DNA from: Bacteroidaceae bacterium
GTDB taxonomy: Bacteria > Bacteroidota > Bacteroidia > Bacteroidales > Bacteroidaceae
Length of the DNA stretch: 33,194 nucleotides
Direction of reading: 5' to 3'
Assembly: GCA_017470525.1 (NCBI GenBank)
Contig: JAFUYM010000049.1
Location: forward strand, 1 to 33,194
Position numbers and translations under genes: made by a program. Below, piece after piece: positions 12,192 through 24,178 of this stretch (position 1 is the stretch's first letter; each line of letters begins with the position of its first letter). The notes under the pieces were generated by a model, which did no database searches, was not told the DNA's origin, and worked only from the letters and a program-made list of their open reading frames with translations.

Positions 12192-12578
12192 TCACAATTT
12201 CTTAAAAACAAATCTCACCAACAAGAAATTAATCGGAATAACCACCGCAAACACGGGAATCGGCACTAATTGCTTAGAAACACCCAACCACAAGAAGAGT
12301 TGAAGGAACAATACATGGAGTAAATAGTTCACACCATGTGCAACACCAAAACCTACCCCTCTTTTCACAGATGCCTTTTTGCGGAAGGTGAAGAAACTTG
12401 TCAGCAAGAAATTGCAGATAAAACTGATAGCGTATCCTATACTGTAGGCAACAGTAACATTAAGCCATTTCATCAATAGCCAATATACCCCATAATGTAT
12501 TGCAGTTGCAACGACTCCGACAATAACAAAACGGACTATCTCAAGAAAGGTCTGCTTACTTCTCAACATTTGTTTCAC
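12192..12578 (-). CDS. GtrA-family flippase-like membrane protein
   Basis: This 128-residue protein has four predicted membrane helices and the GtrA pattern (RFVIVGVVATAIHYGVYWLL, FICNFLLTSFFTFR, LVRFVFKK). GtrA proteins are thought to move polyprenyl-phosphate-linked sugars across the inner membrane. It overlaps the end of the upstream glycosyltransferase gene by 23 bases, so the pair is translationally coupled. The role assigned here is surface-glycan modification, by analogy with gtr clusters. The start at 12578 could also be the ATG at 12569. Confidence 0.88.
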   Translation of the reverse strand: MKQMLRSKQTFLEIVRFVIVGVVATAIHYGVYWLLMKWLNVTVAYSIGYAISFICNFLLTSFFTFRKKASVKRGVGFGVAHGVNYLLHVLFLQLFLWLGVSKQLVPIPVFAVVIPINFLLVRFVFKKL

Positions 12579-13500
12579 TCACTAAATATACAGGACGTCC
12601 TTTCGCCTCATTAAAGACACGTCCCAAATACTCGCCTATAATGCCCAAACTCAGCAATTGAACACCACCCAAAAACAGAATCACAACCATCAAGGATGGA
12701 AAACCTGCCACGGGGTCGCCCCACACAATTGCCTTGACCAAGACCCAGCACATATATATAAATGCTACCAATGAAATGAAGAAACCCACGATGGTGGAGA
12801 AACGCAAAGGTGCTGTAGTGAAAGATGTTATTCCATCAATGCCCAAGTTTAGCAAATCTCTGAAATGCCAAGAGGAGGCTCCTGTTTGCCTATCTCCTTG
12901 TTCAAAAAGTATTTCCTTCTTCTTAAAGCCAATCCATGCAAACATACCTTTGGTATATCTTTCATTCTCACGCATCTGTCTTAGGGCATCTATACAAACC
13001 CTATCTAACAAACGAAAGTCGCCAACATTTTCGAGGATGTCAAATCGGGATGTTTTCTGCAAAAGGCTATAATAAGCCAATGAGAAATGCCTCCTCAGCC
13101 AACTTTCCTTTCCTCTCGATTTCCGTTTGGCGTAAACATCCTGAAAGCCTTGCTCCCAATAGTTGAGCATCTCAGGTATCAGTGTAGGCGGATGCTGTAG
13201 GTCAGCATCCATGATGACCATACAATCTCCGCTTGCATAGTCAAAGCCCGAAAGCATAGCACATTCCTTGCCAAAGTTTCGGGACAAAGATATATACCTG
13301 ATGCGGGCATCCTGACCAGCATAATGCTTTATCGCCTCCAACGTCTTGTCTCGACTTCCATCGTTGATGAGCAGAATCTCAAAATCATAGCCTTTCAGTT
13401 TTTCGCAAATGCCACTTTGCCCACATAATGCATCATACAACATGGGGAGCCCTTCTTCTTCGTTGAAGCAAGGTATTAGAATTGACACCTTCTTATTCAT
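12556..13500 (-). CDS. Polyprenyl-phosphate glycosyltransferase, GT2 (GtrB-like)
   Basis: This 314-residue enzyme should transfer a sugar from a nucleotide donor to undecaprenyl phosphate on the cytoplasmic face. The GT-A domain opens with KVSILIPCFNEEEGLP and has the DADLQHPP metal site near residue 100 and DFRLLDR near 165. Two membrane helices follow (VGFFISLVAFIYMCWVLV and LMVVILFLGGVQLLSLGIIGEYLGR), as in GtrB, DPM1-like and ArnC proteins. Its start overlaps the end of the large membrane protein by eight bases. Which sugar it uses cannot be read from the sequence. Confidence 0.92.
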   Translation of the reverse strand: MNKKVSILIPCFNEEEGLPMLYDALCGQSGICEKLKGYDFEILLINDGSRDKTLEAIKHYAGQDARIRYISLSRNFGKECAMLSGFDYASGDCMVIMDADLQHPPTLIPEMLNYWEQGFQDVYAKRKSRGKESWLRRHFSLAYYSLLQKTSRFDILENVGDFRLLDRVCIDALRQMRENERYTKGMFAWIGFKKKEILFEQGDRQTGASSWHFRDLLNLGIDGITSFTTAPLRFSTIVGFFISLVAFIYMCWVLVKAIVWGDPVAGFPSLMVVILFLGGVQLLSLGIIGEYLGRVFNEAKGRPVYLVSETNVEK

Positions 13501-15190
13501 ACATTATATCTATCACACGTTCTTGAATCATAGGATTTTTCTTCAGTAAAAGGTACTTCGTTCCCTCAAATTCCATCAATACCACACCATTAACAGGCAT
13601 CTCCGTCGCTGCAAATCGTTCCATCCTGTTCAATATGGGGAAAGTTGCCCATTTTGATTCTTTCAATACATATTTCACCATAGAAGGAGGTTTTTCCCCT
13701 GTCCACTGACATGCATAAAAAAACGAATATTTTTGATTCACATCAAAACTATTACGAACTAACCCATGGCGTACATCATCCAAGAAACGCTCAGGCAAGA
13801 AAAGCAACTCACTTTGTTGCCGCCCATAATAATGTGCAACCCAACCATCATAAAAAGACCTATGCGGGTCTCGTTCGGATGGCAAAAATGGTAGAACCAT
13901 ACGTTCCGCATAAAAAGACGGATCAACCTCATGCATTGCAATAATTCCCATTTGTTTTTGCTTTATTTGTTTTTCCGCATTCTCAAAGTCTTGGTAGTTC
14001 TGCCAACAATAAGGCAAACACAGTAACAAATAGGCAATGGTTGCAGATAGTGTCAATTTACCAACAAACCTCGCTACGCTACTATATGGAAATGCATAAA
14101 GAATCATTATCAAAGAGAAAAATTCAATGCCGAAACGGGATTGACCACTATCATGGCGTGTAAATACCACAAAAACGAAAGAGGTCACAACACCTACGAG
14201 CCATTCTTTCCGTACCTTCTTCACAAAAAAGACCAGTATCAGCATCAAAAAAAAGATACGCAAATTAAGCATATAGGGCAGGGCCTTCAGGGATGATAAA
14301 AACACTTCTGCCAACGAAGAGGCACCAGTCTGCCGGTGTTCCAATGCCCTATGTATTGACCCTGGAGAAAACACACACAAAGCAACTCCGACAACCAATC
14401 CTGTCAACAATACCCATTGCGACCATGCCAATGTTTTCCTGCGAGCCACTACAACCAAGAGGTATGCACAGCACAAACCTATCACTACGGCTTCATTTGT
14501 CCATCCTACTACTACGCCATATAGAAACAACAGAGGCATCCACCATTTTGACTGTATCTTTCTGCCAAGCAACCAATGGAACAAAAGCACAAGAACTGCA
14601 ACAAATTCGTAATTGAAAACCCCACTCATCCACAAAAACTCATATTTGAAGCCGCACATGAAACATACGGTGAGAGCCGCTGAAATCGCCAGTCCCATCA
14701 CAGCGTATGCACGTTCTCTCACAAAATTGATGGTCAGAAGATGCAAATACAAACCGAACAAGACTGTACTAAAAAGATTAAAAGAGCACTTATCCAATAA
14801 TCCATCGAATGTCATTACAAAAAGATGAGGAACAACACGCCCATTTACTTGGAAATAATGGTAATAATTGCAAACAAAAACATCTGACAGAGTTTCAATC
14901 CGCCTATCCTCTCCTCCCATCATCATGCAGTAATTCCAATCATCACAAAAAAGTGGAGTAAGACTGATAATGACATAATAAAGCAACATCAGAAGGAGTA
15001 GAAATCCCCAATAATAAAAGGGTTCTCCATTCCTTCTACCATCTTCCAACCGCCAGTTATAGATGAAATATCGCCATTTACTATACGATGCGACATTTGA
15101 AGGAGCCGACACTTTCCCTCCCACCATTTTTGTCGTTTCATGTACAAGGCACGATACAGCGCCTCCATCTGTAGAAGTTTCCATTTGCAT
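13493..15190 (-). CDS. Large polytopic membrane protein, candidate glycosyltransferase (DUF6056-like)
   Basis: This 565-residue protein has about ten membrane helices from residue ~55 to ~400 and a soluble C-terminal part. It resembles DUF6056-type membrane proteins: an early SLTPLFCDDWNYCMMMGG motif with acidic residues just after the first helix, then a YYHYFQVNGRVVPHLFV loop. This DD-NGR-H layout recalls GT-C-type transferases that use polyprenyl-phosphate sugars, with catalytic Asp in the first outer loop. In gtr clusters the third, variable gene encodes the transferase that fixes specificity, and this gene holds that place. The ATG at 15190 lies inside a hairpin; the ATG at 15184 is an alternative. 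Family assignment is tentative. Confidence 0.7.
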   Translation of the reverse strand: MQMETSTDGGAVSCLVHETTKMVGGKVSAPSNVASYSKWRYFIYNWRLEDGRRNGEPFYYWGFLLLLMLLYYVIISLTPLFCDDWNYCMMMGGEDRRIETLSDVFVCNYYHYFQVNGRVVPHLFVMTFDGLLDKCSFNLFSTVLFGLYLHLLTINFVRERAYAVMGLAISAALTVCFMCGFKYEFLWMSGVFNYEFVAVLVLLFHWLLGRKIQSKWWMPLLFLYGVVVGWTNEAVVIGLCCAYLLVVVARRKTLAWSQWVLLTGLVVGVALCVFSPGSIHRALEHRQTGASSLAEVFLSSLKALPYMLNLRIFFLMLILVFFVKKVRKEWLVGVVTSFVFVVFTRHDSGQSRFGIEFFSLIMILYAFPYSSVARFVGKLTLSATIAYLLLCLPYCWQNYQDFENAEKQIKQKQMGIIAMHEVDPSFYAERMVLPFLPSERDPHRSFYDGWVAHYYGRQQSELLFLPERFLDDVRHGLVRNSFDVNQKYSFFYACQWTGEKPPSMVKYVLKESKWATFPILNRMERFAATEMPVNGVVLMEFEGTKYLLLKKNPMIQERVIDIMYE

Positions 15191-15209
15191 TAAAATGACC
15201 TTTTAATGC
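15187..15209 (-). promoter_or_regulatory. Hairpin over the start codon of the 565-residue protein
   Basis: A perfect 9-bp stem (15201-15209 with 15187-15195, loop GGTCA on the minus strand) holds the ATG in its 3' arm and AAAAGG, the only Shine-Dalgarno-like stretch, across its 5' arm and loop. Folded mRNA would hide the start. Confidence 0.6.
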
Positions 15210-15229
15210 GTCAAGCCAATAATACAAAA

Positions 15230-15402
15230 AGAGTTCCTGCAAGCACCTGATGTACAGACACAAAAACGTGGACGAATCCCGTCCAACGTTCAAGGTACTT
15301 GCAGGAAACCTAAATCCAAAAACAGGAAAACGCCCACTAAACAAGTAGGCGTTACCACTATTCTATAGATTTGTTCTTTCCACCTGCAAGTTTCTGAACG
15401 TT
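15230..15402 (-). promoter_or_regulatory. Structured leader with a triplicated motif: attenuator or invertible switch
   Basis: Three copies of a ~20-base motif starting CCTGCAAG occur: A at 15383-15402 and C at 15235-15254 on the plus strand, and B at 15285-15305 inverted. In the minus-strand RNA, B can pair with the earlier A (CCTGCAAGT and TGAACGTT match exactly) or with the later C (12 pairs, one G-U), but not both. The B:C hairpin is followed by AACTCTTTTTG, a terminator-like tail, so A:B would be the antiterminator. A separate hairpin (15329-15353, nine pairs) followed by TTCCTGTTTTT lies between A and B. Alternatively A and B are recombination sites flanking a small invertible segment. 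Confidence 0.6.
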
Positions 15403-15431
15403 TTTGAATAATAGCCAACGCTAAATTTAAC

Positions 15432-15480
15432 CCATAAGTCACACCACCGACCTCCGCTGAAGCCTTGTGGCGGTGATTAG
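15432..15480 (-). ncRNA. Hairpin at the 5' end of the gtr-like leader
   Basis: CACCGCC pairs with GGTGGTG in the minus-strand RNA (seven pairs, one G-U), enclosing a smaller CTTC/GGAG stem. It lies just after the predicted transcription start and may protect the 5' end or form part of the leader switch. Confidence 0.4.
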
Positions 15481-15483
15481 GTG

Positions 15484-15491
15484 CAAAGGTA
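15484..15491 (-). promoter_or_regulatory. Promoter -7 box of the gtr-like cluster
   Basis: On the minus strand the sequence reads TACCTTTG, a match to TAnnTTTG. The nearest TTG is only 16 bases upstream, shorter than usual. It predicts a leader of nearly 300 bases. Confidence 0.55.
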
Positions 15492-24090: not shown

Positions 24091-24096
24091 TCGTTG

Positions 24097-24178
24097 TACC
24101 CAGAGCCGGGATCGAACCGGCACGGATTGCTCCATTGGTGTTTGAGACCAACGCGTCTACCAATTCCGCCATCTGGGC
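24097..24178 (-). tRNA. tRNA-Leu (anticodon CAA)
   Basis: The 82-base gene folds as a class II tRNA. The acceptor is GCCCAGA with TCTGGGT (one G-U), the D arm contains GGAATTGGTAGACGCG, the anticodon stem TTGGT/ACCAA frames the loop CTCAAAC with CAA, a long variable arm follows, and the T arm is GCCGGTTCGATCCCGGC. Discriminator A is present and CCA is not encoded. It reads UUG codons. Confidence 0.95.

Follow-up and report, generated by a model that had tools for sequence, protein, structure and literature searches.

As judged by sequence comparison, the triplicated motif upstream of a three-gene cluster in a Bacteroidaceae genome is part of a large structured leader RNA family in Bacteroidota that extends far beyond this one locus. 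We consider it probable that the family acts in cis as a bistable leader RNA, similar to an attenuator or a riboswitch, in which strand B pairs in exchange with an upstream strand A or a downstream strand C. Comparison across leaders bears out the RNA structure and its conservation, the complementarity of B to both A and C, the promoter box, and the gene context. Most striking is that a single RNA is attached to many kinds of restriction-modification (RM) system and to glycan modifiers, which suggests a common RNA switch for many different defence systems.

The leader of the window and its family

The window, the whole stretch of 33,194 nucleotides that was analysed, carries on its minus strand a cluster of a DUF6056 gene (13493-15190; PF19528, E 1.2e-46), a glycosyltransferase family 2 gene (12556-13500; PF00535, E 5.9e-35), and a GtrA/DPMS transmembrane gene (12192-12578; PF04138, E 4.2e-20). 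Ahead of the first gene lies the leader RNA (15191-15478, minus strand), which runs from a presumed start placed by the promoter box to the DUF6056 start codon and is supported by the alignment of orthologues, the z score of its fold, and a covariance model. The promoter -7 box TACCTTTG at 15484-15491 (minus strand), which we take to be a Bacteroidota-type TAnnTTTG box, recurs as a motif upstream of most leaders of the family. On the other side of the promoter, a divergent DUF3800 gene (PF12686; 15594-16292, plus strand) starts about 100 nt away and has its own TACCTTTG box a few bases ahead of its ATG; elsewhere in the window there is an ordinary tRNA-Leu (CAA) at 24096-24178 (minus strand).

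Read along the minus strand, the leader begins with a 5' hairpin P0 with an RGCG tetraloop (15439-15476; seen in the fold and in compensatory changes in helices 1 and 2), which is present across the genus and absent from many order-level relatives, and continues with a small hairpin, UAGC-GUUG-GCUA (15412-15423), that is similar in many relatives in alignments read by eye. Strand A (15383-15402) comprises the 5' strands of P1 and P2, on either side of a conserved AA internal loop (helices 3 and 4), and strand B (15285-15307) comprises the 3' strands of P2 and P1, separated by RCC; B is common to A and C, as indicated by the repeat finder, covariation, and folding. A:B encloses hairpin P3, whose apical part spans 15329-15353 according to folds and covariation. 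Downstream of B are the terminator-like segment T (15261-15284), which ends in CGUCCACG and a U-run and in relatives often complements the P3 3' strand, and strand C (15234-15254), the rival of A for B according to the repeat finder, folding, and the comparison of own with foreign binding. After C comes a CUCUUUUU tract (15226-15233), recognised from the sequence, which together with B:C makes an intrinsic-terminator-like element; its U-run at 15226-15230 (minus strand) directly follows B:C, and the orthologues keep a similar U-run.

The three motif copies lie where the first-pass annotation had placed them, A (15383-15402) and C (15235-15254) in direct and B (15285-15305) in inverted orientation. 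A repeat finder recovers the B:C arms (15234-15248 and 15293-15307) as 15 nt with 93% complementarity, the sole exception being a position capable of G-U pairing. It does not report A because A:B carries a 2x3 internal loop, which in the fold of the window is flanked by two helices of 9 and 9 bp. The 291-nt window leader folds at -101.7 kcal/mol, compared with -72.6 (sd 4.6) in 200 shuffles (z = -6.3), none of which was as good.

A DNA match to the locus was found in 7 of 61 genomes (60 relatives and the window's own genome, itself counted among the seven). The whole leader is present in two genomes of the same genus, at 89% (G020) and 85% (G036) identity, and in both it precedes the same three genes: their ORFs (539/578, 314/314, and 128/133 aa) cluster with the window genes in blastp, and the first matches DUF6056. 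Strands A, B, and C and the U-run after C are kept in both. Three weaker matches (L005-L007) have the 5' part in common and, by eye, the same structure in different letters. One further candidate, L008 in genome G024, was rejected, its likeness to the window being confined to the promoter, and L009, a 24-nt match to the window, was set aside from the family.

Six leaders show double-sided changes in 22 of 42 pairs (covariation score 0.586 compared with 0.245 shuffled), and from these six the covariance model R1 was built. R1 has matches at E<=0.01 in 38 of 45 genomes of the genus, with up to 10 per genome and 7 in the window's own genome, and at E<=1e-4 in 115 of 393 order-level and 23 of 395 phylum-level genomes, the two larger samples being evenly drawn under strict filters with the own genome counted in both. 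On one 50-kb stretch of E. coli, R1 gave no match at E<=10. A second set of leaders was collected with a DNA pattern fixing only the 3' strand of P3, RCCT, and ACGCTTTT; it gave 109 stretches in named genomes, of which 80, all titled Bacteroidota, were used, and 79 of these 80 match R1 at E<=1e-3 (six of the 79 being near-identical to leaders of other sets). Removal of near-identical sequences reduced 174 leaders overall to 165.

The leaders searched have no match in Rfam 15. Scans of the window and 20 relatives returned only tRNAs and nothing at gathering score on the leaders, and scans of 20 order-level loci to E 0.5 returned nothing over the leader at gathering score, the matches at these loci being a 5S rRNA above its cut-off and an SSU rRNA end and a Thr_leader below theirs. 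Four matches to 551 bases of the window at a relaxed threshold (E 0.78-3.8) fall below gathering score and were dismissed as chance. In the open-licence PubMed Central literature searched, as represented by titles and the openings of abstracts and exclusive of preprints, no RM leader RNA was found, and the part of PMC9723704 consulted describes none of this type. Structured leaders in human microbiomes, Bacteroidetes included, have been discovered computationally (PMC8040213); the word "restriction" is absent from the main text of that study, to which the comparison is confined, and our family may overlap with one of its candidate RNAs.

Position relative to promoter and gene is regular across the family. 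Of 158 leaders, 140 have TAnnTTTG at a distance of 170-330 nt upstream of the end of B, as against 25 for the opposite strand and 14 for an upstream control window. A co-oriented first ORF begins within 350 nt in 155 of 165 leaders, at a median of 89 nt after B (starts are approximate, being the first ATG, GTG, or TTG), and five of the 165 have no downstream ORF on the stretch analysed. By its sequence context, then, the leader sits between a promoter box and a co-oriented gene, as would a cis-regulatory element. Attenuation through a translated leader peptide was considered and rejected: it is unlikely because short ATG frames running into A or P3 are rarer in the leaders (40 of 165) than in crude shuffles (94; ATG starts only).

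Alternative pairings of strand B

Aligning the leaders of related genomes for covariation, as the first-pass annotation had proposed, revealed strong covariation of A:B in 94 leaders and again in 79. Across the 94 aligned leaders, 92.4% of cells pair and 38 of 42 pairs have double-sided changes; the covariation score of the whole structure is 0.621, compared with 0.213 (sd 0.006) when shuffled and at most 0.125 when slid. In A:B, pairing reaches 97.7% in helix 3 and 99.7% in helix 4, and 15 of the 16 pairs show double-sided changes. This alignment was fitted to R1 and is hence biased toward the model structure, a concern that is reduced because the slid controls stay so low and the second set agrees: in the 79 pattern leaders, whose DNA pattern fixed just one base of the A:B helices, these helices are 98.0% and 99.1% paired, again with double-sided changes in 15 of 16 pairs, and 30 of 42 pairs have such changes in the whole structure.

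These data also bear on a second proposal of the first-pass annotation, that the motif copies form an invertible promoter with A and B as recombination sites. A and B are indeed near-identical inverted repeats 77 bp apart, as such a DNA switch would need, but the arms differ from locus to locus and show the pairwise covariation of an RNA helix, and no fixed recombinase site was found in them, P1 and P2 varying and covarying between loci in the 94 and the 79 leaders alike. The proposed internal promoter, TAGATTTG at 15366-15373, is present in the window and absent from both orthologues (alignment by eye), and the Bacteroidota-type promoter box already faces the cluster. A marker of the inverted interior occurs in none of the 165 assembled leaders, which is a weak test given that R1 favours one orientation. 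We regard inversion as scarcely credible here.

The pairing of B with C was assessed by binding each B to its own and to foreign downstream segments. For 64 leaders of the genus, the own segment binds at a mean of -19.6 kcal/mol compared with -11.8 for foreign segments, and for 39 of the 64 fewer than 5% of foreign segments bind B equally well; for 29 order-level leaders the values are -12.7 and -9.6 kcal/mol, with 8 of 29 loci below 5%. B:C is thus locus-specific in the genus and weak in the order-level set. Energy models, which disregard kinetics, proteins, and tertiary contacts, predict an exchange of partners as the RNA lengthens: in the window and its two orthologues, A:B has a probability of 0.97-0.99 when the RNA reaches the end of B, and B:C one of 0.90-0.93 just past C. 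With the window leader extended by the U-run alone the fold is balanced (A:B 0.60, B:C 0.37), and in the full leader A:B falls to 0.07 with B:C at 0.91. The claim that B can pair with A or with C has accordingly held up, given the covariation of A:B, the better fit of B:C to its own locus than to foreign ones, and the predicted succession of the two; the proposed attenuator layout is likewise upheld in its anatomy, by the pairing and by the modelled passage from A:B to B:C. That strand exchange would occur during transcription, as in an attenuator, is a prediction of the energy models.

The same behaviour is predicted for most leaders that precede RM genes. In 114 such leaders the mean probability of P1 drops from 0.87 at the end of B to 0.05 at 75 nt later, where B is paired downstream with a mean of 0.81; 107 of the 114 combine a P1 below 0.2 with downstream pairing of B, and under a strict rule (P1 above 0.8 before C and below 0.2 after it) 77 of the 114 switch. 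All five folded leaders before putative glycan-modifying genes switch, a sixth (L014) not being counted, as its row in the alignment is out of register and gives probabilities of zero. None of 26 leaders hand-labelled as preceding secreted or other proteins does so (labels set after the folding values had been seen), and a further 17, whose genes are truncated or unidentified, divide into 14 that switch and three that do not. Taken together, the folded leaders whose genes belong to neither the RM nor the glycan group number 43, of which 29 are non-switching, so the core must act without exchange as well.

A core that is also found without the switch, that is common to very different accessory operons, and whose first gene is co-oriented in 155 of 165 cases would fit processive antitermination, in which the core (A:B, P3, and T), by binding RNA polymerase or a NusG-like factor, would let transcription run through long foreign operons (RM, glycans, surface proteins), with C merely resetting or releasing the core. 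We think this unlikely: strand C, predicted mainly in RM and glycan leaders, would be superfluous for such an element. Under the exchange reading that we favour, transcription would start just upstream of the leader, and the nascent RNA would fold into an aptamer-like domain closed by A:B (P1, the AA/RCC internal loop, and P2) and holding P3, presumably stabilised in the cell by a ligand or a protein. As C emerges, its complementarity to B would let it displace A. In the window, the U-run that comes after B:C would make this helix an intrinsic terminator; its formation would turn the cluster off, and A:B would serve as the antiterminator that keeps the cluster on.

The output step may differ between leaders. 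In the window and both orthologues the U-run directly follows B:C; in RM leaders, for which the same A/B/C exchange is predicted, it follows T, which often has the P3 3' strand as a possible partner. Judged by eye, a U-run after C is missing from most RM leaders, so termination at B:C is not the common output, and what the exchange controls there might be premature termination or the accessibility of the start codon, which lies about 90 nt after B. In 122 of 165 leaders, the 50 nt after B contain GC, or GC and one base, followed by UUUU, compared with 10.1 expected from shuffles, a chance control added because the U-runs had been located with a permissive pattern; ten of the 165 lack either a located U-run or an alignment row. 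T and the 3' strand of P3 are complementary and vary together (GUAG/CUAC, GCGG/UCGC, AUGG/CCAU, AUAG/CUAU). Over 13 distinct in-register combinations, 96.2% of P3':T positions pair compared with 86.2% when shuffled (none of 5000 as high), and over all 59 combinations in a fixed register the excess is small, with 80.1% compared with 76.8% (3 of 2000 as high); one mismatch occurs in 38 of 126 in-register leaders. P3':T with its U-run would form a terminator competing with P3, although this is a weaker inference than A:B and B:C. In five leaders (L045, L047, L049, L064, and L080) GATAAG recurs, in T and again in the element CCGATAAGTGC before the start codon, and by eye both copies are complementary to CTTATC in P3.

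Control of translation or of RNA processing, with B:C and the GATAAG element before the start codon setting ribosome access, could account for the scarcity of U-runs after C in RM leaders, for the median distance of 89 nt between the end of B and the first ORF, and for a recurring element after C that, by eye, reaches toward the start codon. The U-run after C in the window and both orthologues speaks against it, however, and the GC-ended U-runs after B, more frequent than in shuffles, point to transcription; we hold this reading to be distinctly unlikely.

Genes behind the leader

RM genes of types I, II, IIG, and III follow 114 of 165 leaders, and putative glycan-modifying genes follow six. 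The RM share is 53 of 65 leaders in the genus, 11 of 29 at order level, and 50 of 71 in the pattern set; much of the order-level remainder is secreted- or lipoprotein-like by eye. RM labels were assigned by blastp to representatives scanned with Pfam (ten also with PADLOC), through the first ORF in 108 cases and the second in six; seven of the 114 were set by hand, among them L202 via its resemblance to L194 and L133 solely via a ResIII/SNF2 helicase match. The systems are varied: type I HsdM/HsdS, MmeI-type IIG, Eco57I/ResIII, an EcoRI-type methyltransferase with GmrSD/HNH, PLD-Snf2 with an Eco57I methylase, a type III-like methylase with a ResIII helicase, an N6/N4 methylase with CfrBI, a D12 methylase with AlwI, and C5 methylases. 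Other genes behind the leader encode acyltransferases, MBOAT, DprA, DarT, BspA-type leucine-rich repeat (LRR) proteins, and secreted-looking ORFs. Within the window's own genome, the other six copies precede a 356-aa ORF (L048), an MmeI-type gene, a D12/AlwI system, a split Eco57I system, a secreted-looking 1015-aa ORF, and a BspA-like ORF, the last two assigned by eye.

Viewed from the genes, at least 25 of 102 RM genes in the genus are preceded on their own strand by an R1 match no more than 2 kb away, whereas chance alone would give about 0.1. By Pfam family the counts are 8 of 30, 6 of 16, and 11 of 56 among the 117 R1 matches listed, which reach E 7.8e-6 (30 of 31 EcoRI_methylase rows were used, the last being the second fragment of one gene). 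For 77 of the 102 genes a leader was undetected among the matches listed. The association of leader and RM genes is therefore strong, yet most genes of the three Pfam families have no detectable leader.

That one leader family accompanies different RM types, in several copies per genome, could also mean that the structure marks where a mobile cassette ends, as a landing site in DNA or RNA, and that its position at defence genes stems from cassette exchange and not from regulation. The near-constant distance and orientation to the ORF and the upstream promoter box argue otherwise, as does the lack of any match in viral contigs to the family pattern (a single pattern that covers part of the family), and we find this very unlikely.

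Several loci are of interest in themselves. Leader L048 (1252-3985) lies before two ORFs of 356 and 515 aa, neither with a Pfam match, which are possibly a new defence system. At order level, the end of the ORF downstream of L122 (2-1414) matches DarT (PF14487, E 8.7e-7), and the leader may thus also serve defence of the toxin-antitoxin type. A sub-group before split Eco57I systems (L090, L092, L094, L098, L100-L102, and L104) has identical strand B letters across genomes and a distinct 5' part, and L107, L163, and L254 precede BspA-type leucine-rich repeat proteins, the last of them in the window's own genome and assigned by eye.

To our knowledge, the control of RM and other innate defences is mostly known from a few protein controllers. 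We offer tentatively, as a possibility, that the family is a Bacteroidota-wide RNA switch for self/non-self systems, in which RM systems of types I, II, IIG, and III, DNA methyltransferases, and modifiers of phage-receptor glycans stand behind one leader that might sense a common signal, such as phage infection, DNA entry, or cell state, and toggle defence through A/B/C, with the non-exchanging form given over to surface proteins. One leader family over many defence types in gut, rumen, and environmental Bacteroidota would amount to a common control layer. The leader also provides a sequence handle for new defence operons, such as the genes behind L048, and makes inducible restriction directly testable in cultured species such as Xylanibacter ruminicola Ga6B6, in which it precedes an MmeI-like gene (L188).

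Comparison with known systems

Promoter invertons of Bacteroidales have inverted repeats near surface-glycan genes, and the leaders resemble them in this and in their Bacteroidota promoter boxes; unlike invertons, however, the leader arms are locus-specific and covary pairwise, and no inverted form is seen among assembled leaders, weak as that test is. Antitermination of the UpxY, LoaP, and RfaH type, with UpxY found in Bacteroides, exerts leader-dependent control over polysaccharide operons. The present family would be similar in its leader-dependent control of surface-glycan and other accessory operons, but its conserved part is a large covarying RNA, many of its targets are RM genes, and none of the three genes of the window cluster is NusG-like. 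Attenuators and riboswitches work by exchange between terminator and antiterminator. Although the family differs from them in targeting mainly RM operons, not a metabolic pathway, and in that most leaders outside the RM and glycan groups (29 of 43) are non-switching, it is like them in its 5' leader position, in its U-runs, and in that B, the 3' strand of the closing helix, is shared by an aptamer-like domain and the downstream strand C.
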